From Acidobacteriota bacterium (lineage in GTDB: Bacteria; Acidobacteriota; Vicinamibacteria; Vicinamibacterales; UBA2999), in the NCBI GenBank assembly GCA_018000455.1, contig JAGNJW010000001.1, positions 186,001 through 250,000 of the forward strand: a DNA stretch of 64,000 nt, read 5' to 3'. Positions 23,942-39,842 of this stretch are shown piece after piece. Under the pieces are notes generated by a model. The model did no database searches. It worked only from the letters and a program-made list of their open reading frames with translations, and was not told where the DNA came from. Position 1 is the first letter of the stretch. The number at the start of each line of letters is the position of its first letter. The position numbers and the translations under genes were made by a program.

Positions 23942-25663
23942 GTGCAGGTCATCCGCAGCCGCCGCCAGTTCGATGTCTGCATCGTCGGGTCGGGCGCCGG
24001 CGGCGGCATGGCCGCCAAGGTGCTCACCGAAGCGGGCGCCGACGTCGTGATGCTCGAGGCCGGGGTGATGTGGGACCCGGTGCGCGACTCGAAGATGTTC
24101 GCCTGGTCGTACGACAGCCCACATCGCGGTGCGGCCACGCCGGCGCGGCAGTTCGGCGAGTTCGACGCTGGCCTCGGCGGCTGGACGCTCGACGGCGAGC
24201 CTTACACGCAGGGCCCCGGCACCACGTTCGACTGGTTTCGCACGCGCATGCTCGGCGGCCGCACCAACCACTGGGGCCGCATCTCGTTGCGCTTCGGCCC
24301 CGATGATTTCCGGCGCCGCAGCCTCGACGGCTTGGGCGACGACTGGCCGATCAGCTACGACGACCTGAAGCCGTACTACGACAGGGTCGACGACCTGATT
24401 GGCATCTTCGGCTCGGTGGAGGGCCTGCCCAACGAGCCCGATGGCCACTTCCTGCCGCCACCGCGGCCGCGCTGCTACGAGCTGCTCATCAAGCAGGCCG
24501 CCGACGCACTGAAGATCACCTGCATCCCGTCGCGGCTGTCGATCCTCACGCAGCCGCACAACGGCCGCAAGGCGTGTCACTACTGCGGCCAGTGCGGCCG
24601 CGGCTGCGCCGTCCACGCCAACTTCTCATCGCCGTCGGTGCTGCTGCCGCCGGCCCAGGCCACTGGCCGTCTGACGCTCGTCACGAGCGCGATGGCGCGC
24701 GAGGTGACGACCGACACCAACGGTCTTGCCACCGGCGTCACCTACATCGATACGTCGACCGGCCGTGAGAACCACGTGCGGGCCCGCATCGTCGTGCTCG
24801 CGGCCAGCGCCTGCGAATCGGCGCGGTTGCTCCTCAACTCGCGCTCGTCGCGCTTTCCGCACGGCCTCGCCAACTCGAGCGGCACGGTGGGACGCTACCT
24901 CACCGATACGACCGGCGTCGGCGTGTCGGGATTCATCCCGAAGCTGATGGACCGCGTGCCGCACAACGAAGACGGCGTGGGCGGCGCGCACCTCTACATG
25001 CCGTGGTGGCTCGACAACCGCACGCTCGACTTCCCACGCGGCTACCACATCGAGATCGGCGGCGGCCTCGACATGCCGAGCGCCGGATTCCTCGGCGGCA
25101 TCCACAAGTACACGGGCACCGGCACCAACGGCCAGGCGATCGCGCCCGGCGGTTATGGGCGCCGGCTGAAGAACGACTACCGCCGGCTCTACGGCTCGGC
25201 CGTGTACTTCTCGGGGCGCGGCGAGATGGTGCCCAACGAGCACAGCTACTGCGAGATCGACCCGGTGGTGGTCGATCGCTGGGGCATTCCCGTACTGCGC
25301 TTCCACTTCCGCTGGACCGACTACGAGTGGAAGCAGGCGTTGCACATGCAGCAGACCTTCCGCGGGCTCATCGAGCAGATGGGTGGCACGCCGCTGTCGC
25401 CGATGCCCGGTCCCGACCAGGGCTACGGCATCGCGCCCGGCGGCCGCATCATCCACGAGGTGGGTGTCACGCGCATGGGCCACTCGCCCTCGACGTCGGT
25501 CCTGAACAGCCACTGCCAGGCGCACGACGTCAAGAATCTGTTCGTGGCCGATGGCGGCCCGTTCGTGACCAACGCCGACAAGAACGTCACCTGGACGATC
25601 CTCGCGCTGGCCATGCGCACGAGCGAACACATCGCCGACCAGCGTAAGGCGGGGGCGATCTGA
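23942..25663 (+). CDS. GMC-family FAD sugar dehydrogenase with C-x5-C-x3-C (Fe-S type), 573 aa
   Basis: A glucose-methanol-choline oxidoreductase. The FAD-binding GSGAGGGMAAKVL is at about residues 17-29 and the GMC block GGRTNHWGR follows. Near the C-terminus come the HEVGVTRMG active-site region and FVTNADKNVTWTI. Cys212, Cys218 and Cys222 (CHYCGQCGRGC, with an additional Cys215) have the spacing I recall for the [3Fe-4S] ligands of bacterial FAD-glucose dehydrogenase alpha subunits. The enzyme would oxidise a sugar or glycoside hydroxyl and pass electrons on through the Fe-S site. The GTG start is the only one matching the N-terminal sheet. It overlaps the small subunit gene (TGATG), so the two are translated together. 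Confidence 0.92.
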   Translation: MQVIRSRRQFDVCIVGSGAGGGMAAKVLTEAGADVVMLEAGVMWDPVRDSKMFAWSYDSPHRGAATPARQFGEFDAGLGGWTLDGEPYTQGPGTTFDWFRTRMLGGRTNHWGRISLRFGPDDFRRRSLDGLGDDWPISYDDLKPYYDRVDDLIGIFGSVEGLPNEPDGHFLPPPRPRCYELLIKQAADALKITCIPSRLSILTQPHNGRKACHYCGQCGRGCAVHANFSSPSVLLPPAQATGRLTLVTSAMAREVTTDTNGLATGVTYIDTSTGRENHVRARIVVLAASACESARLLLNSRSSRFPHGLANSSGTVGRYLTDTTGVGVSGFIPKLMDRVPHNEDGVGGAHLYMPWWLDNRTLDFPRGYHIEIGGGLDMPSAGFLGGIHKYTGTGTNGQAIAPGGYGRRLKNDYRRLYGSAVYFSGRGEMVPNEHSYCEIDPVVVDRWGIPVLRFHFRWTDYEWKQALHMQQTFRGLIEQMGGTPLSPMPGPDQGYGIAPGGRIIHEVGVTRMGHSPSTSVLNSHCQAHDVKNLFVADGGPFVTNADKNVTWTILALAMRTSEHIADQRKAGAI

Positions 25664-26328
25664 TGCCGGAGGTCAACCGCCGCGAGATGCTGCGCCTGCT
25701 GTCGGCCGCGCCTCTGGCCGCCGGCTTCACGTGGACCAGCGTCGAGGTGGCGAACGCGCACGAGGTGCGGCAGGCGGCCCAGGCAGCCACCGGCGCCCGC
25801 TACGTGCCGAAGTTCTTCAGTGCGCACGAGTGGGAGACGGTGGGCGTGCTGGCCGATCTCATCATTCCGCGCGACGACCGCTCCGGCAGCGCCACCGACG
25901 TCGGCGTGCCGGCCTTCATCGATGCGCTGATGCTCGACGAACCGGTGCTGCCGCTCGAATCGCGGCGCCAGACGGCGATGCGCGGCGGCCTGGCGTGGCT
26001 CGACCTCGAGTGTCAGCGCCGCTTCGACAAGACGTTCGTGGGCTGCGCGGAGGCGGAGCGCACGGCCGTGCTCGACGACATCTCGTGGCCGGTGCCAGAG
26101 CCCGCCCCGGGCACGCCGCCGCCGGTGCCCGACTTTGCCCCGGGCCGCACGTTCTTCTTCAGCTTCCGCGACCTGACGGCCTCGGGTTTCTGGACGACCA
26201 AGGCCGGCATGGCCGACCTGCAGTTCATGGGCAACCGCGCGGTGGCCGAATGGACGGGCTGTCCCGACGAGGCGCTCAAGCAGCTCGGCGTCGACGGCAC
26301 GGGCGCGGCGGCGAAACCCGCGCGCTAG
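25663..26328 (+). CDS. Gluconate 2-dehydrogenase subunit 3-family protein (Tat-exported small subunit)
   Basis: 221 aa. A twin-arginine motif (NRREMLRLLSAAPLAAGF) shows Tat export, and the DUF-like subunit-3 core begins at about residue 45 (FFSAHEWETVGVLADLIIPRDD). In characterised systems this subunit is required for maturation and export of the flavoprotein, which lacks its own signal and is carried across as a complex. The stop-start overlap with the GMC gene upstream shows coupling. No cytochrome c subunit follows, so the electron acceptor must be encoded elsewhere. Confidence 0.9.
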   Translation: MPEVNRREMLRLLSAAPLAAGFTWTSVEVANAHEVRQAAQAATGARYVPKFFSAHEWETVGVLADLIIPRDDRSGSATDVGVPAFIDALMLDEPVLPLESRRQTAMRGGLAWLDLECQRRFDKTFVGCAEAERTAVLDDISWPVPEPAPGTPPPVPDFAPGRTFFFSFRDLTASGFWTTKAGMADLQFMGNRAVAEWTGCPDEALKQLGVDGTGAAAKPAR

Positions 26329-31444: not shown

Positions 31445-32131
31445 CTAGGCGTGCGGCGCCCACGATCGGTCGCCCGGCGCGAGCGGCACGTCCGGATCGA
31501 AGCGCCCCGGGGACTCGATGTACCGCATGGCCTGCGTGTAGCCGATCTCGGAGGTGAAGTAACCGAGCAGCGCCAGCTCCTTCATCATGCGGAAGTAGTG
31601 CGCCGGCACCTCGTCGTCGAGCGGCGCCGGCGGCGGGTAGCGCGTGCGGATGGTGACCCGTTCGGCCATCGCCGTCTTCTGCTCGCGATCCAGCACCTCG
31701 AGCAGCGCCAGGCGCTCGGCTGGCGTCGCCTCCATGAAACCGCGGCCGCTACGGGCGCGGCAGGCGGCGTCGAGAGCGAGCAGGCCGTCGCGAAACACCT
31801 GCTGGTTGGCATCGGTGTAGACGTCGGTGACCATGAGCGCCATGAAGGCGCCGGTCGTGGCGGCCTTGGCGCCGGGCGTCGACGTGGTCGGCAGGATGGT
31901 GTCGGCGATCTCGTCGAGCAGCGCGATGTCCGCGGGCGTGAAGGTGCCGATGCCCTGCGTCATCGCCCGCTCGAGCGCTCCGTCTGCCAAGGCATACGCC
32001 TCGAGGCGCGTGCCGCCGATGAGCGCGGCGCCGCCCATCAGCATCGCCACCCGCTGCAGCGCGTCGCGGCGCGTCATGCCGGCGTGGGGCCCGTCGTCGA
32101 GCGGTCGCGTGGTGTTGGCCCTGTGGCTCAT
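31445..32131 (-). CDS. Gluconate 2-dehydrogenase subunit 3-family protein, second copy
   Basis: 228 aa. A twin-arginine leader lies slightly inside the N-terminus (GMTRRDALQRVAMLMGG), then comes the subunit-3 core (TFTPADIALLDEIADTILPTT) ending in TSEIGYTQAMRYIESPGRF. It follows the second GMC gene by 11 bp and would be its Tat-exported partner. It differs strongly from the copy at 25663-26328, so the two pairs are not a recent duplication. Confidence 0.9.
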   Translation of the reverse strand: MSHRANTTRPLDDGPHAGMTRRDALQRVAMLMGGAALIGGTRLEAYALADGALERAMTQGIGTFTPADIALLDEIADTILPTTSTPGAKAATTGAFMALMVTDVYTDANQQVFRDGLLALDAACRARSGRGFMEATPAERLALLEVLDREQKTAMAERVTIRTRYPPPAPLDDEVPAHYFRMMKELALLGYFTSEIGYTQAMRYIESPGRFDPDVPLAPGDRSWAPHA

Positions 32132-32142
32132 GGTGCGAGTTC

Positions 32143-33837
32143 CTAGAGATTGCTGCGCTTCAACTCCTCGACCGCAAACGCCGAAGCGCGCGCGGTGAGG
32201 GCCATGTAGGTGAGCGACGGATTCACGCACGCGCCCGACGTCAGGCACGAACCGTCGGTCACGAACACGTTCGGGCAGTCCCACACCTGGTTGTGCCCGT
32301 TGAGCACCGAGGTCTTCGGGTCGCGGCCCATGCGCGCGGTGCCCATCTCGTGGATACCCATTCCCGGGTAGTACTGGTTGTCGTAGATCCGCACGTCGCT
32401 GACACCAGCGGCCTCGAGCATCTCGGCCATGTCGTTCATCATGTCGCGGCGCATCAGGTGTTCGTTCTCGCCGGTCTGGCAGTCGATCGCCACGACGGGC
32501 TGACCCCAGGCGTCGGTGCGCGACTCGTCGATGGTGATGCGGTTGGCGTGGCTGGGCAGCATCTCGCCAAACGCGGTTGCGCCCATGCGCCACGGGCCCG
32601 GCCTGGCCATGGCGTCCTTGAAGTCGCCGCCGACACCGAGTTCGGCTACCGCGCGCTCCCACCCCTGGCGGTTCGCGCTGCCCTGATAGCCGAAGCCGCG
32701 CAGGTAGGGCCGCTTGTCGCTGCCGAGGTTGCGGTAGCGCGGGATGTAGAAGCCCGTCGGGCGACTGCCGTAGACGCTGCGGTCTTCGAATTCGTGGACG
32801 ACGCCGTTGGCGCCGCAGCGGAAGTGGTGATCCATCAGGTTGTGACCGAGCTCGCCGCAGCTGCTGCCGAGTCCGCCGGGCCACACCTCGCGTGCCGAGC
32901 GCATCAGGATCCACGTGGAGTTGATGGTGGAGGCGCACAGGAACACGACCTTCGCCGAGTAGACGGTGGTCTGGCGCGTGGCGGCGTCGATCACGCGCAC
33001 GCCGGTGGCGCGCTTGCGATCCTTGTCGTAGACGACGTCGGTCACGATGGCGTGAATCCTGAGCGTGAGGCGGCCGGTGGCCATCGCCGCCGGCAGGGTC
33101 GACGACTGCGTGCTGAAGTAGGCGCCGTAGGGACACCCCGAGCGGCAGGCGTTGCGATGCTGACAGCGACCACGGGTGCCGAGCGGCTGCGTCAGGTTGG
33201 CCGTGCGTCCTGGGATGATCCGCCGTGTGCCCTCGAACTGCCGCGACAGCCGGCCGGCGATCGCCGCTTCCGCCACGTTGAGCGGCATGGCCGGCTGGAA
33301 CTGGCCATCGGGCAGCTGCGGTATCCGCTCGACCGATCCCGAGATACCCGCGTGACGTTCGGCGTGGTCGTACCACGGCGCGATGTCGGCGTAGCGGATC
33401 GGCCAGTCCACCGCGATGCCCTCGCGGGCGTTGGCCTCGAAGTCGATGTCGCTGTGGCGGTAGCTCTGCCGGCCCCAGGTGAGCGAGCGGCCGCCCACCT
33501 GGTAGCCGCGGTACCAGTCGAAGCGCTTGATCTCGGTGTACGGCGACTCACGCTCGTCGGTCCACCAGTCGGGCTGCCTCTCGCTCAGGGGGTAGTCGCG
33601 CTTGAGCACCGGATAGGCGTCGACCAGCTCACGCGTCCGGCTGCCGCGGTGGGGGAACTCCCACGGCGCCTTGCGAGCGACGGTGTAGTCCTTGACGTGT
33701 TCGACGTTCTTGCCGCGCTCGAGCAGCAGCACGCGCAGGCCGCGCTCGGTCAGCTCCTTGGCGGCCCAGCCGCCAGAGATGCCGGAGCCCACCACGATGG
33801 CGTCGAAGGCTTCTGGCTGTGACTGCATCGCGCGCAC
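32143..33837 (-). CDS. GMC-family FAD sugar dehydrogenase, second copy, 564 aa
   Basis: FAD-binding VVGSGISGGWAAKELTERG at about residues 15-33, GGRSLTWGRQSYR, and a C-terminal active-site block HEMGTARMG, then VTDGSCLTSGACVNPSLTYM. Cys225, Cys231 and Cys235 in GRCQHRNACRSGCPYG repeat the C-x5-C-x3-C pattern of Fe-S-containing GMC dehydrogenases. No signal peptide, as expected when the small subunit supplies the Tat signal. It heads the operon GMC-small subunit-TIM barrel. Probable substrate class: glycosides or free sugars in the periplasm. Confidence 0.92.
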   Translation of the reverse strand: MRAMQSQPEAFDAIVVGSGISGGWAAKELTERGLRVLLLERGKNVEHVKDYTVARKAPWEFPHRGSRTRELVDAYPVLKRDYPLSERQPDWWTDERESPYTEIKRFDWYRGYQVGGRSLTWGRQSYRHSDIDFEANAREGIAVDWPIRYADIAPWYDHAERHAGISGSVERIPQLPDGQFQPAMPLNVAEAAIAGRLSRQFEGTRRIIPGRTANLTQPLGTRGRCQHRNACRSGCPYGAYFSTQSSTLPAAMATGRLTLRIHAIVTDVVYDKDRKRATGVRVIDAATRQTTVYSAKVVFLCASTINSTWILMRSAREVWPGGLGSSCGELGHNLMDHHFRCGANGVVHEFEDRSVYGSRPTGFYIPRYRNLGSDKRPYLRGFGYQGSANRQGWERAVAELGVGGDFKDAMARPGPWRMGATAFGEMLPSHANRITIDESRTDAWGQPVVAIDCQTGENEHLMRRDMMNDMAEMLEAAGVSDVRIYDNQYYPGMGIHEMGTARMGRDPKTSVLNGHNQVWDCPNVFVTDGSCLTSGACVNPSLTYMALTARASAFAVEELKRSNL

Positions 33838-33971
33838 TCTAGCACGGCCCGAGGGCCCGGCATGCCGGTCGGTCGCCGACCAGGCGCTGCGCGGCGTCTT
33901 GGCGGCCGTGAGCCCGGTTGCCGCTCCTCTTCGCTTACACGGACAAGCACGTTGGAAAGGACAGCTCCCTG

Positions 33972-34265
33972 ATGAGACAGATTCAGACGCTCCTCCTCAC
34001 GTCGGTGTTCGCGCTGGTCGCGAGCCTGCCATCGGCCCCGGCCGGCGCACAGGTCGTGACGTTCCAGCAGCAGTTGGTCGCGCCCACACCCGGCACCTCG
34101 TTCGGCAGGGCCAGCGATGTCGATGGCTCGACAGCGGTCGTTGGCGCTTCGGTCGAGGATTCGCAGCGCGGTGCCGCCTACGTGTTCGTCAAGAACGGCA
34201 GCACCTGGGAGCCGCAACGGCGGCTGACAGCCAGCGATGCCGCACCAACGTCGCAGTTCGGTACG
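33972..34265 (+). pseudogene. 5' fragment of a secreted FG-GAP repeat protein
   Basis: An intact start (ATG 33972, with AAAGGA about 10 bases upstream) and signal peptide (MRQIQTLLLTSVFALVASLP) lead into integrin-alpha-like FG-GAP repeats: GTSFGRASDVDGSTAVVGAS, then AAYVFVKNGSTWEPQRRLTA and APTSQFG. The sequence then loses all similarity and runs antisense into the 3' end of the sigma factor gene, stopping at 34361. FG-GAP proteins of this type normally have several hundred residues of repeats, so most of the gene is gone. The break lies between about 34262 and 34292. Confidence 0.75.
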
Positions 34266-34292
34266 GGGCGCCGCCCGTCGTTCAGCAATCAC

Positions 34293-34856
34293 CTACGGGC
34301 TGAGGCGTTGCACCAGCCACGCCTGCGCCATGCTGAAGTCGCGCTTGGCGGTCGCCAGTGAGATGCCGAGCAGCTCGGCCGCCTCTGCGCGCCCGCATCC
34401 AAGGAAGGTGCAGAGCTGTATCAGCTCCGCCTTTCGTGGATCGATCTCGGCCAGCTCGTCGAGCGCCCGGTCGAGATCCAGGAGGTCGTCGTGATTCACG
34501 TCGAGTACCGCCATGTCGTCGCTGAGTGGTACCCGCACGCGGTGCGCGCCCCGTTTCTCGGCATGGCGAGCACGGGCGTGATCGACTAAGAGATGCCGCA
34601 TCACGCCGGCGGCAAAGCCGAAGAAGGCCCGCCGGTTCACGAAGTTGGCCTTCTCCTGCTGCAGGAGCCGCAAGTACAGATCGTGCACGAGCACCGTGGC
34701 CTGCAAGGTGCCCGGGCGTTCGCCCGCCATGAAGCGGGAGGCCATGCTGCGCAGCTCAGGATAGACCGCCGGAATCAGGCGTTCGAGCGCGGCGGCATCA
34801 CCGTGGCCCCAGCGGTGGAGCAGCTGCGTGAGGTGTCCTGGCGGTGTGTCGGCCAT
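34293..34856 (-). CDS. ECF RNA polymerase sigma factor, TIGR02999-type
   Basis: 187 aa. Region 2 begins HLTQLLHRWGHGDAAALERL and includes GTLQATVLVHDLYLRLL, the hallmark of the TIGR02999 ECF-like group abundant in Acidobacteriota and Planctomycetota. Region 4 ends RAEAAELLGISLATAKRDFS, the helix-turn-helix reading the -35 element. No anti-sigma factor is adjacent. Instead a Ser/Thr kinase with TPRs is transcribed divergently with only 30 bp between start codons, suggesting control by phosphorylation as known for some kinase-linked ECFs. ATG 34856 was chosen; the frame stays open to an ATG at 34928, which would overlap the kinase. Confidence 0.9.
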   Translation of the reverse strand: MADTPPGHLTQLLHRWGHGDAAALERLIPAVYPELRSMASRFMAGERPGTLQATVLVHDLYLRLLQQEKANFVNRRAFFGFAAGVMRHLLVDHARARHAEKRGAHRVRVPLSDDMAVLDVNHDDLLDLDRALDELAEIDPRKAELIQLCTFLGCGRAEAAELLGISLATAKRDFSMAQAWLVQRLSP

Positions 34857-34886
34857 CGTGCTTGGGGATACTATTCGGGGTCCGGT

Positions 34887-37304
34887 ATGGATGTCACCCG
34901 CTGGCAGCGGCTCGAAGAGCTGTTTCACTCCCTATCCGACCTGGCCGCCGGGCCGGAGCGCGAGGTGCGCGTAAGGGCGCTCTGCGAACACGACCCGGAT
35001 CTGGCCACGGCCCTTGGCCGCCTCCTAGCCGCCAACGACAGCCTCCGCGGCGTGGGAGCGCCGGTAGACCAGCACCTCGGCGTGCGGCTTGGCAGCTACG
35101 AGATCGACACCCTGATTGCCCGTGGCGGCATGGCGTCGGTTTATGCGGCACACCGCGCGGATGAGCAGTTCAACCAGCGCGTGGCCGTCAAGATCATGGA
35201 CCTGCGGCTGTCGGACCCGTCGCTCGTGGCCCGGTTCAAGGCGGAGCGCCAGATTCTGGCCGGGCTCGAGCATCCGGCGCTGACGCGGCTCCTCGATGGC
35301 GGCGTGACGGGCCTCGGCGAACCGTATCTGGTGATGGATTACGTTGAGGGCCAGCCGATCGATCTGTACTGCGACGAGCATCGGCTCGACATCGCCGGCC
35401 GCCTGCGCCTCTTTGCCCAGGTCTGCGCCGGAGTGGCCTTCGCGCATCGGCACCTCGTGCTCCACCGCGACCTGAAGCCGGCGAACATCCTGGTCACGGC
35501 GGAGGGTCTCGTGAAGATCGTGGACTTCGGCACGGCCACGTTGCTGCAGCCGGAGCGGCTGATGACCGTATCGCCGGCGCCGCTGACGCCGGCCTACGCG
35601 AGCCCCGAACAGCTCACCGGCCAGGCCGTGGATACGGCCAGCGATCAATACAGCCTGGGCCTGGTGCTCTACGAGCTTCTGACCGGGGTGGCGCCCTTTG
35701 CCACGCGCGCGTCGCTGATGGCGGCGGTGGAACGGGCGCTGGCGGGGGTGGAACCCACCGCACCGCACATGGCGGTGATCGAGGGCGCGCCAGGCCCGCG
35801 ACGCACCTCGCTGGCGCGACTGCGGCGTCAGCTCAAGGGCGACCTCGGCACGATCGTGCGCAAGGCGCTCGTGGCCCACACTGCCGAGCGCTACGCCAGC
35901 GTGCAGCACCTGGCCGACGACCTGGATCGCTGGACGCGCGGGGAACCCATTCTGGGGCGCACGCCGTCGGTGGCCTATCGGGCGTCGCGCTTCGTGCACC
36001 GGCACTGGGTGGCCGTCTCGGTGGCAACGACGTTGCTGGTGTCGCTCGTGGCGGCAACCGCCGTGTCGTTCCAGCAGGCCTCGATCGCCCGCGCCGAATC
36101 CGGCAAGGCACGACAGCTCAACCGGTTCCTGACTGACATGCTGTCGTCGGCCAACCCGAGCTGGTTCAACGCCAACGCGGGCAATGCCGGCTCGATCACC
36201 GTGCGCGAGGTGCTGGATGGGGCGAGCATGCTCATCGAGACGGAGCTGAGCGACCAGCCGGCGGTCGAGGCCGAGTTGCGACGGACGCTGGGACGCACCT
36301 ATATCGGGCTGGGTGTCGTGGACCAGGCGCTGCCGCATCTGAACCGGGCGCTGGCCCTCTACCAAGGTGAGGCGGACGCTTTCGGCATCGCCTTCACTCA
36401 GATGCTGCTGGGGGAACACCGTATACGGACAGGCGACTTCAAGGCGGCCGAGGGGTTCCTGCGAGAGTCGATCGCCTACGTGCGGTCCCGCGGGTCGTTG
36501 GCCGACCCGGAGCTGCACCTGATTGCCACCAACGATCTGGCCGTCGCCCTCAACTATCAACAGCCCGGGCACGCCGAGGCCGTGGCACTGTTGCGGGAGT
36601 CCCTCGAGGTGTCAGATCGCAGCGGCCTCAATCGGGCCGGCGCCAGCGTGGTTGTGCACAACCTTGCTTTCCTGGCTCTCCGGAACGGACAGATCGACGA
36701 GGCCGAAGTACTTCTTCGCGACACGCTCCGGCGCATGAATGCTCTGCCAGTTGAAGTACCCGAGCGCAGCCTGGTGCATGGAACGCAGTCGGACCTGTTC
36801 TTCCAGCGAGGCAACTACGCTGAGGCCGAGCGCCAGGCGGCCGCCGCGGTCGAGGGGGCGGCGCGCACGCTGCCGGCCGACCATCCGATTCAGCCGGTCT
36901 ACCAGGCGGCGTGGGGGCGGACGCTCGTCGCCGCCGGGCGGCTCGAGCAAGGGCGAACGGTGCTGCTCCAAGCATTCGACAGCATCAGCAAGATGCGCCC
37001 CGCAGGCCACATCGACCTGGTTGCGTCACTCATTGGGCTGGGGTCCGTCGATCGCCTCCAAGGTCGGCTGAACGAGTCCGAGCAGCTTCTCCGCCAGGCG
37101 CGGGCGATTGTCGTGCAGCACCCAGCCTATACGGAACATACGGCGGCCGCGGCCGCCGAGCTGGGCCTCACGCTGGGCGCACTGGGGAAGGCCAGCGAGG
37201 CTCACGAACTCTTGAAGGAGAGCCACGCCGTGCTTCGGGCGGCCTATGGTGATGAACACCCCCTGACCCAACAAGCGCTCGCGCGACTGCAGGGCAGCGA
37301 GTAG
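34887..37304 (+). CDS. Membrane Ser/Thr protein kinase with TPR sensor, 805 aa
   Basis: A PknB-like kinase domain spans about residues 70-350: glycine-rich loop ARGGMASVY, ATP-binding K102 (VAVKIM), catalytic loop HRDLKPAN with D195, and DFG at 213-215. One membrane segment follows at about 374-394, then a C-terminal region with several TPR-like pairs (for example VDQALPHLNRALALYQGEAD and QIDEAEVLLRDTLRRMN), ending in a kinesin-light-chain-like AYGDEHPLTQQALARLQ. An unusual helical segment of about 65 residues precedes the kinase (ELFHSLSDLAAGPEREVRVR), typical of acidobacterial kinases paired with ECF sigma factors. Topology suggests that the TPRs lie outside and the kinase inside. Confidence 0.92.
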   Translation: MDVTRWQRLEELFHSLSDLAAGPEREVRVRALCEHDPDLATALGRLLAANDSLRGVGAPVDQHLGVRLGSYEIDTLIARGGMASVYAAHRADEQFNQRVAVKIMDLRLSDPSLVARFKAERQILAGLEHPALTRLLDGGVTGLGEPYLVMDYVEGQPIDLYCDEHRLDIAGRLRLFAQVCAGVAFAHRHLVLHRDLKPANILVTAEGLVKIVDFGTATLLQPERLMTVSPAPLTPAYASPEQLTGQAVDTASDQYSLGLVLYELLTGVAPFATRASLMAAVERALAGVEPTAPHMAVIEGAPGPRRTSLARLRRQLKGDLGTIVRKALVAHTAERYASVQHLADDLDRWTRGEPILGRTPSVAYRASRFVHRHWVAVSVATTLLVSLVAATAVSFQQASIARAESGKARQLNRFLTDMLSSANPSWFNANAGNAGSITVREVLDGASMLIETELSDQPAVEAELRRTLGRTYIGLGVVDQALPHLNRALALYQGEADAFGIAFTQMLLGEHRIRTGDFKAAEGFLRESIAYVRSRGSLADPELHLIATNDLAVALNYQQPGHAEAVALLRESLEVSDRSGLNRAGASVVVHNLAFLALRNGQIDEAEVLLRDTLRRMNALPVEVPERSLVHGTQSDLFFQRGNYAEAERQAAAAVEGAARTLPADHPIQPVYQAAWGRTLVAAGRLEQGRTVLLQAFDSISKMRPAGHIDLVASLIGLGSVDRLQGRLNESEQLLRQARAIVVQHPAYTEHTAAAAAELGLTLGALGKASEAHELLKESHAVLRAAYGDEHPLTQQALARLQGSE

Positions 37305-37715
37305 CGGCCGCACGAACTCCTGGATGAGGAAGTTGTGCTCCGGCGAATGCTCGCGCAGCCGGTCGACCACGACGTCGCGATCGGGCGTGAGGTCAAACAG
37401 ACACGCCTTGGTCTGGATGTGCGCTCCCTCGGGGATGTGCGCCGAGAGATAGGTCTGATTCGACCACGCGCCGGTCGTCACGACCTGGCGCTGACACCGG
37501 AACTCGCCTTGCGCGGTGACGACGGCGATCTCGGCGCCGCTGCTCGACACGCGCTCGATCGCGCAGTTGTCGAACACCTGCGCCCCCCGCCGCTTCGCCA
37601 GGTCGGGATGGGCGCTGTTGCCTCGGGCGGCCATCACGAGTCCGCTTTCCTGCTGGTAGGGCCCGCAGACGGGACCGTCGAAGCGAAACGCCGGCCAGCG
37701 GCGCCGGATTCGCAC
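37305..37715 (-). pseudogene. Internal fragment of a sarcosine-oxidase-like FAD oxidoreductase (DAO family)
   Basis: The minus strand encodes the middle of a DAO-family flavoenzyme: IRRRWPAFRFDGPVCGPY, QESGLVMAARGNSAHPDLA, VVTTGAWSNQTYLSA and CLFDLTPDRDVVVDRL, which are consecutive blocks of sarcosine/N-methyltryptophan oxidases. The N-terminal FAD-binding GxGxxG third is missing, and the reading runs off into the antisense of the kinase gene right after DRLREH, where a normal protein would continue with the HGFKF-type C-terminus. Both ends are thus lost, and no start codon or ribosome site is convincing. It is a remnant abutting the sigma-kinase module. Confidence 0.75.
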
Positions 37716-37844
37716 TCGTTAGCGCGATGCTGTGGCTGTTCATTCGTCCCGACCGGGGCGTCTACCCGTTGCCCGTCGGCGCCGCCGGGTGATACCTTCC
37801 GGCGTCCGGAGGACGTTCATGACGAGTACTACGCAGGCACAGGC

Positions 37845-39842
37845 ATGCTGACAGGGCGGTGGTGGCGCCTCGCCGTGACCGGCCTCGTGTGCGCTGGCGT
37901 GAGCATGGCTGTGCCGCGCAAGGCTGGTGCGCAGCCGGCTCCCGGCCTCGAGACGATCGCGCAGTTCGAGCGCTATCCCTTGCTCGTCGACGAGGCCCAA
38001 GCGCAATACGTCTCCAGCTACGACCGCACCGGCAAGAACGACGACGGGTTCGCCGGCCGCTACTCCGCGCTCTACGTGGATCAGAAGGGCGAACACGTGA
38101 TCTTCGACGTGAAGGGTCCGGGCGCGGTCTACACGCTATGGTTCACGAGCCGCGAGCACGGCTGGGCGGCGCTTGGCTGGGGGCGCCTCAAGTTCTACTT
38201 CGACGACGAAGCTCGGCCGCGGCTCGACATGGATGCCGACGAGTTCTTCAGCGGCCGGCGTCCGCCGTTTGCCGCGCCATTCGTCTTCGATCGCTTCGCC
38301 AGCTCCGGCGGCTACGTCAGCTACCTGCCGCTGCCGTTTGCGCGACGGCTGAAGATTACGACCGAGCGTCGTGTGGGGTTCTACAACGTCTACTACCACT
38401 CGTTTTCGTCGACCCGGCAGGTGGAGAGCTGGACCGGACGCGAAGACACGAGCGCGGTGGCCCGCATGTGGCGCCAAGCCGGTCGCGATCCGAAGGGCAG
38501 TGGCAACGCCGAGGTCTTCTCTGGCACCGTTGCATTGCCCGCGCCTGCCATGCCCGACGGCGACATGGTGCCGGTAGCAGCGCCGGTCTTCGAGTGGAGC
38601 GGAACCGGCGCCATCACGTCGCTGCGATTCAATCCGCTGGGCCCGCTCACGCCGTATCAGCTCAATCACCTGCTGCTGCGGATCTACTGGGACGGCGAGA
38701 CCACGCCGTCGGTGTCGGCGCCGCTCGGCAGCTTCTTCGGGTCGGGACTGGGCGAGGCGTCCGTCAAGGCGGTGCCGCTCGGCATGAGCCCGTCGGGCGA
38801 CTACTACTGCTATCTGCCGATGCCGTTCTGGTCGCTGGCGCGCATCGAGATCGTGAACGAGAATCCCGGGGCGGCCCCGCCGATGTGGTGGGAAGTGCGG
38901 TTGGCGAAAGACACCGGCATCGAGTACCCGCGTGACGCCAGCGGCTACTTCAAGGCGCACTACCGGAAGGAATGGCCGACGACCACCGGCCACGACTACC
39001 GCCTGCTCGACACCACCGGACGTGGCGTGTATGTGGGCCAGACGATGACGGTCGAGCCGATCCGGCCGGAGATTAAGCGCTGGTGGGAAGGCGACCTGCG
39101 CGTCTACGTGGACGATCGCCGGCATCCAGCCTTTCACGGCACCGGACACGAGGACGAGTATCTTGGCGGCTGGTCGAACGAGTGGCTGATGAATCCGTAT
39201 TCGCTGCCGATGCACGGCCAGCCGGCCACGCGCGACCTCACCCAGGTGGACTTTCAGTGGAACGCCAGCACCACCGTGTATCGCTTTTTCCCCGGCGGCG
39301 TGCCGTACCTGTCGCATCTGACGGTCTCGACCGAGCACGGCGTGGCCAACCAGGCACCGGCCATGTACTCGAGCGTGGCCTACTACTACGAACAGGGCAC
39401 GCCGATGCGCCAGGTCGACACGCTCGACATCGGACTGGCGAGCGACGAGCAACGGCATCGCTACCGCGCGACGCCCGCCTCGCCGGTGACGCGGCTCGTG
39501 GCGCAGTTCGAGGGCGTCAACGACGCCGTGGACGTGACCGACGAGGGCCGCGAGGTGGCCAGGACCTCGCAGTTCTCGATGGCCGTGCCGGACTCGGCTC
39601 GGGGCCTCAGATTGCGCCGGCTCTACGACCAGTCGGCCATTCAGGACGCGGAGGTGTGGGTGAACGGCACCAACGCCGGCGCGTGGTATTCGGCGGCCAC
39701 CAACACGACGAAGCGCTGGGCCGAGAGCGATTTCCTGATCCCGGCCTCGCTCGTGGCTGGCCGCTCCACGCTCGACATCGAGATTCGCGTCGTCTCCGGG
39801 ACGTGGAGCGAGTACCGCTACGAACTCTGGGCGGCGCCGTGA
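37845..39842 (+). CDS. GH172 (DUF2961) secreted glycoside hydrolase, 665 aa
   Basis: An N-terminal signal peptide (MLTGRWWRLAVTGLVCAGVS) is followed by the jelly-roll DUF2961 domain. Characteristic pieces are FDVKGPGAVYTLWF, PLPFARRLKI, YYHSFSS, DYYCYLPMPFW, and the diagnostic GTGHEDEYLGGW (GTG.ED in the family). A second beta-sandwich occupies about residues 520-665. Characterised GH172 enzymes act on alpha-D-fructofuranosides or D-arabinofuranosides, but related DUF2961 proteins in soil bacteria have unknown substrates. ATG 37845 directly starts the signal peptide. It would release sugars that the dehydrogenase locus upstream could oxidise, though linkage is only by proximity. Confidence 0.9.
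   Translation: MLTGRWWRLAVTGLVCAGVSMAVPRKAGAQPAPGLETIAQFERYPLLVDEAQAQYVSSYDRTGKNDDGFAGRYSALYVDQKGEHVIFDVKGPGAVYTLWFTSREHGWAALGWGRLKFYFDDEARPRLDMDADEFFSGRRPPFAAPFVFDRFASSGGYVSYLPLPFARRLKITTERRVGFYNVYYHSFSSTRQVESWTGREDTSAVARMWRQAGRDPKGSGNAEVFSGTVALPAPAMPDGDMVPVAAPVFEWSGTGAITSLRFNPLGPLTPYQLNHLLLRIYWDGETTPSVSAPLGSFFGSGLGEASVKAVPLGMSPSGDYYCYLPMPFWSLARIEIVNENPGAAPPMWWEVRLAKDTGIEYPRDASGYFKAHYRKEWPTTTGHDYRLLDTTGRGVYVGQTMTVEPIRPEIKRWWEGDLRVYVDDRRHPAFHGTGHEDEYLGGWSNEWLMNPYSLPMHGQPATRDLTQVDFQWNASTTVYRFFPGGVPYLSHLTVSTEHGVANQAPAMYSSVAYYYEQGTPMRQVDTLDIGLASDEQRHRYRATPASPVTRLVAQFEGVNDAVDVTDEGREVARTSQFSMAVPDSARGLRLRRLYDQSAIQDAEVWVNGTNAGAWYSAATNTTKRWAESDFLIPASLVAGRSTLDIEIRVVSGTWSEYRYELWAAP

Follow-up and report, generated by a model that had tools for sequence, protein, structure and literature searches.

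A sigma factor-kinase locus in an Acidobacteriota genome as a probable copy of a three-gene cassette placed at different sites in related species

The stretch of DNA analysed here, referred to as the window (64,000 nucleotides; G000:C40:186001-250000), belongs to an Acidobacteriota genome of 5.19 Mb in 54 contigs (G000) and contains a sigma factor gene and a divergent Ser/Thr kinase gene next to a shortened gene for a secreted FG-GAP protein. This set is probably one copy of a sigma factor/kinase/secreted fn3-FG-GAP protein cassette that is found in this genus and in one neighbouring genus, that lies at different places in different species and whose third gene is truncated in the window. The features of the locus are the following (window coordinates and strand):

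33908-33936, + strand: putative sigma-dependent promoter of the FG-GAP gene, GTGAGCCC-GGTTGCCGCTCC-TCTTCGCTT; bipartite motif and spacing match those of cassette genes.
33954-33969, + strand: conserved leader/Shine-Dalgarno sequence, GGAAAGGACAGCTCCC; position-locked match to the third-gene leaders of copies L041, L043, L044 and L046.
33972-~34262, + strand: 3'-truncated third gene of the cassette, coding for a secreted FG-GAP protein; its start resembles a signal peptide, and FG-GAP_2 is matched at E 5.1e-11.
34293-34856, - strand: ECF43-like sigma factor, 187 amino acids; ATG at 34856; PF07638 E 2.5e-45; TIGR02999 196.6 bits (cut-off 126).
34857-34886, no strand: divergent start region, GGATACTATTC, 30 bp between the sigma factor and kinase start codons.
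34887-37304, + strand: PknS-like receptor Ser/Thr kinase, 805 amino acids; ATG at 34887; Pfam Pkinase 6.3e-38 and tetratricopeptide repeats (TPRs).
37302-37721, - strand: DAO/sarcosine-oxidase-like relic, outside the cassette; Pfam DAO positions 124-209 of 353.

The original prediction of an extracytoplasmic function (ECF) sigma factor and a divergent Ser/Thr kinase at positions 34293-37304 was borne out by matches to PF07638, TIGR02999, Pkinase and TPRs and by start codons 30 bp apart, although the sigma factor gene, which had been extended to position 34928, has its coding sequence at 34293-34856. In ECF43 sigma factors the acidic sigma2.2 motif is swapped for a QTTA-like motif with a phosphorylated threonine (PMC13147305, PMC8999054). 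The window sigma factor carries QATV in place of DxxD, so that the charged motif (DAED) is absent and the conserved threonine of the definition (QTTA/QATE/STTA) is kept, Thr54 (codon 34695-34697) being the candidate phosphothreonine; QAT was unchanged in 8 of 8 sigma factor orthologues. A Hanks-type Ser/Thr kinase gene adjoins the sigma factor gene in the window and also in L041-L048. The label ECF43-like is based on TIGR02999, PF07638, the QAT motif and the adjoining kinase. The kinase has the PknS-like layout, with an N-terminal segment, a kinase domain (amino acids ~71-274), a single transmembrane helix judged from sequence (about 36007-36072) and a C-terminal TPR region, and its best PDB match was 9EED (Xanthomonas citri PknS; E 1.9e-56, amino acids 3-350).

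The comparison was carried out with four drafts of the same genus (G001, G002, G003 and G004); the relatives of the window's genome are labelled Acidobacteria. Gene content, empty sites, the common promoter and leader and the truncations were computed. Part of the neighbouring genes were called with a purpose-written simple gene caller, and the names gltD-like, korA/korB, DUF411 and rsmH were read off protein starts, not taken from database matches. A search of 162 genomes of the order revealed nine close copies of the sigma factor, each scoring more than 330 bits while the next matches fell below 191 bits, and they were confined to the five genomes of the genus and a single genome from the neighbouring one. 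The pair, which the original prediction had suggested looking for at other loci, has its kinase next to the sigma factor in L041-L048. Within the genus, the pair is normally accompanied by a gene for a secreted fn3 or fn3+FG-GAP protein, convergent to or beside the sigma factor gene. This third gene is present in the trios L041-L044 and L046 and in G002 on contig C33, and in the second copy of the window's own genome (C38, L041) it lies between sigma factor and kinase. Its make-up varies (fn3+FG-GAP, fn3 only, FG-GAP first, or a stub only in G004:C224), and the G002 copy (C138/C33) probably has the order kinase(-) sigma(+) fn3(-).

The FG-GAP gene of the window had been described as a resident gene cut near the sigma factor stop codon. 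The homology does stop about 30 bp short of that codon, the open frame continuing to position 34361 antisense to the sigma factor gene, and the remnant comprises the promoter and the first ~98 codons; the idea of an unrelated resident did not hold, since the promoter and leader of the cassette are present. The gene is the cassette's own third gene in shortened form and not a resident victim of insertion, because it has in common with the cassette the bipartite promoter, the leader, the position convergent on the sigma factor gene (as in L042-L044) and the atypical codon usage. Against a mean GC content at third codon positions (GC3) of 0.894 (standard deviation 0.026), values of 0.824, 0.840 and 0.814 were obtained for sigma factor, kinase and FG-GAP stub, unlike the flanking GMC oxidoreductase (32143-33837) and DUF2961 (37845-39842) genes, which are ordinary; in the comparison of pair and flanks proposed earlier, the codon usage of the pair is thus atypical. 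In L044 and L046 the cassettes are also mostly below their flanks in GC3, whereas those of L041 and L043 are not. No close intact copy of the FG-GAP gene was found elsewhere in the window's genome (best match 46%).

The pattern GTGAGCCC-N12-NYYCCGTTY was found 5' of the L046 kinase gene as well as 5' of the third gene in each of L041, L043 and L046. In the window and in L041, L043, L044 and L046 the leader GGAAAGGAC(A)GCTCCC directly precedes the start codon. When the leaders were shuffled (n=2000), the observed scores were reached 0 times for L044, 0 times for L046, 6 times for L041 and 42 times for L043. The promoter pattern gave 20 matches in five genomes against 10 with a reversed control; about half of the matches are intragenic by the gene calls, and several intergenic ones precede cassette genes or genes for secreted fn3/FG-GAP-type proteins. 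Among these sites are one before an unlinked FG-GAP gene of the same genome (G000:C40:41154) and one before a serine-hydrolase gene in G004:C4, downstream of which there is a region matching fn3. The FG-GAP gene at G000:C40:40.6-41.2 kb (L049), which carries the cassette promoter, runs straight into an fn3-like tail and adjoins a subtilase-like fn3 protein. In G004:C224 (L048, 924-1125, - strand) a secreted stub of 67 amino acids with the cassette promoter is convergent to the sigma factor gene and ends at it; this frame could be another third gene that was truncated, or else a genuine small secreted protein, and truncation of the third gene may therefore have happened twice.

Filled and empty alleles of one site were observed in relatives at three sites, the window copy not being among them. 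In G003:C117 a trio (L044, 791-6097) lies between a gltD-like gene and korA/korB, and the same site is empty in G000, G001, G002 and G004 (4 of 4), where homologous spacers of 26-34 bp separate two whole neighbours. The trio of G001:C76 (L046, 3858-9431) is located beside the ATP-synthase operon, its flanks being 132-179 bp apart in the four genomes in which the site is empty (G000, G002, G003 and G004), with a conserved hairpin containing a terminator-like sequence. The third trio (G004:C26, L042 11464-16510) is placed between DUF411 and rsmH, where G000:C11 has 65 bp, and G003:C30 carries a trio of its own across the same his-rsmH region, on the other side. Complete cassettes measure about 5 kb, and the filled sites hold the three genes alone between intact flanks. 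The earlier claim of block arrival is consequently upheld in that units of this family occupy varied sites as blocks with empty sites in relatives, but the block normally has three genes and not two. A mobile sigma factor-kinase cassette without an obvious transposase, as originally put forward, likewise agrees with the clean empty sites and the absence of transposases in the family units elsewhere. For the window copy itself, the ~4.6 kb on either side of the cassette had no syntenic match in the four genomes of the genus, so that its own empty site is not visible.

The interval from the his operon to rsmH (L042 4686-10986, L043 536-14100, L099 7528-10580) contains different cargo in three species, namely two kinds of sigma factor-kinase module, a permease/PadR-like pair, or little, and therefore looks like an insertion hotspot.

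Several observations weigh against the cassette reading. The genomes used for comparison are without exception drafts that carry the label of metagenome-assembled genomes. Target-site duplications and terminal inverted repeats were sought at five copies and none was convincing, and gene calling and Pfam detected no transposase, integrase or recombinase in the filled intervals. In two species one copy (L041, L048/L047) occupies the corresponding place. The gene order varies, being kinase(-) sigma(+) third gene(-) in L042-L044, third gene(+) sigma(+) kinase(-) in L046 and sigma(-) third gene(+) kinase(+) in L041, and the cassette is therefore not one rigid block. In addition, only a small number of sites underlie the deduced promoter, whose -10 half deviates from the consensus in the window, resolution of the fn3 tree is poor, and the stub protein of the window does not align end to end with other third-gene proteins. 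A direct repeat of 11 bp present in L046, GTGGGTCGCAT, was considered as a target duplication and discarded, as it is not at the right end of the insert.

Cassette proteins are usually more diverged than neighbour genes of the same genome pair. Between G003 and G002, amino acid identities were 70% for the kinase, 73% for the sigma factor and 60% for the fn3 protein, versus 90% for korA and gltD; between G000 and G004 they were 64% for the kinase and 67% for the sigma factor versus 83-87% for the his genes, with rsmH, however, at 70%. The copies at different sites thus represent old paralogues or came from diverged donors, rather than resulting from recent jumps by a single copy. The window kinase clusters with those of L042 and L041 (support 97/98). 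The intact L041 copy was rejected as the source of the window copy, the kinase identity being just 58%. The same-place kinases of L041 (11355-13814) and L047 (4267-6417) share 84% DNA identity over the kinase-domain part, while the TPR half is not alignable at the DNA level, which suggests that the sensor half was swapped or has changed very rapidly. The sigma factor was not found in phages, plasmid matches reached at most 46% identity and viral contigs gave one relative at 43%, so that no vehicle is seen. Comparison with defence proteins gave only generic kinase-domain matches (PD-T4-6, MAD6) and none for the sigma factor and fn3 proteins.

Other explanations have been weighed against the cassette reading. 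The three genes might not have moved as a block and might have been assembled repeatedly through joint function, as in reshuffled operons; the three orders and orientations, the variable third gene and the lack of one except as a stub in G004:C224 speak for this, but the filled sites, where intact flanks enclose the full trio alone, and the same order in several copies make it unlikely. It is also rather unlikely that nothing moved, with many ancestral copies being lost differentially and the window pair being an old resident among decaying neighbours. Copies that are old relative to species divergence, the copy syntenic in two species and the presence of two copies in each of three genomes agree with such a history; nevertheless, in four genomes the empty sites have a spacer of 26-34 bp that is homologous among them and bordered by intact gene ends, and independent precise losses at each site would therefore be required.

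The insertion of a two-gene sigma factor-kinase block that cut or deleted resident FG-GAP and DAO genes, as first proposed, is considered improbable. It is true that the truncations of both neighbours lie no more than about 30-40 bp from the pair and that its codon usage is atypical. The FG-GAP gene, however, has the promoter, leader and position of the cassette, its remainder was not found on the far side, and clean insertions elsewhere leave the neighbours whole, the best-resolved site being the 26-34 bp intergenic gap, contrary to the expected deletion or splitting of residents. The DAO fragment does begin at the kinase stop codon and has lost its other end, as had been noticed, but it is not a gene cut once. 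Compared with a 367-position model derived from seven full-length relatives, the fragment retains only positions 121-209 and 286-318; ~120 N-terminal residues, ~75 internal residues and the C-terminus are missing, and these at least three separate losses are not explicable by one insertion. The DAO gene is an older multi-deletion relic and no record of the arrival of the cassette. No close intact copy of it exists elsewhere in the window's genome, 43 genomes of the family gave matches of 27-38% only, and a search for DAO remnants to the left of the FG-GAP gene found just the Rossmann start of a GMC oxidoreductase. A DAO-like gene in G003:C30 was ruled out as its relative. An assembly artefact joining cassettes to wrong flanks, to which fragmented drafts and the position of the L043, L045 and L048 cassettes near contig ends might point, is highly improbable given that L042, L044 and L046 have both flanks in one contig, that the 54-contig genome holds one complete trio besides the window copy and that a base-by-base comparison matches the flanks to those of the empty sites.

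Two regions of the window (23942-26328 and 31445-33837) look as if they had arisen by duplication: in each, a GMC oxidoreductase gene adjoins a small gene whose start is twin-arginine-like.

With the three-gene cassette as the favoured reading, a working model can be drawn by homology with known systems. The kinase would use its TPR region to sense an external cue and would then phosphorylate Thr54 in the sigma2.2 QAT motif; the phosphothreonine would supply the charge needed for binding to RNA polymerase, and the holoenzyme would transcribe from GTGAGCCC-N15-CCGTTC promoters before the linked gene for the secreted protein and before a few further genes. In X. citri, PknS phosphorylates its sigma partner EcfK (PMC13147305). 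This ECF43 sigma factor and Hanks-type kinase resemble the window proteins in kinase layout (833 versus 805 amino acids), in the QAT motif instead of DxxD and in the adjacency of their genes. Their target is a type VI secretion system, whereas here a secreted fn3/FG-GAP gene with a predicted promoter is linked, and the unit described here, unlike PknS/EcfK, is found at different sites in different species. In Vibrio parahaemolyticus, the ECF43 sigma factor EcfP is inactive until a sigma2.2 threonine (STTA), whose predicted equivalent in the window is Thr54, is phosphorylated by the neighbouring kinase PknT (PMC8999054). In contrast to the window unit, EcfP/PknT responds to polymyxin, and no fn3/FG-GAP partner gene is described in PMC8999054. 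Transposon-less genomic cassettes in general are alike in being small blocks in precise gaps with empty sites in relatives, but the unit of the window differs from them in its variable internal gene order, and neither an integrase nor an attachment-site cassette nor a terminal repeat was detected.

It is tentatively proposed that a self-contained signalling circuit, with a sensor kinase, a sigma factor and a target with its own promoter, may spread between intergenic sites and species without a recombinase of its own, as a new kind of mobile unit. The predicted promoter and Thr54 make the circuit testable in Escherichia coli, and the empty and filled sites are a concrete system for how recombinase-free gene blocks move. 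Acidobacteria are rich in sigma E and Ser/Thr kinase paralogues, as noted for Solibacter (PMC3174227). If circuits arrive with their own target gene and promoter, a whole insulated response would be gained in one step, which would help to explain this expansion of paralogues.

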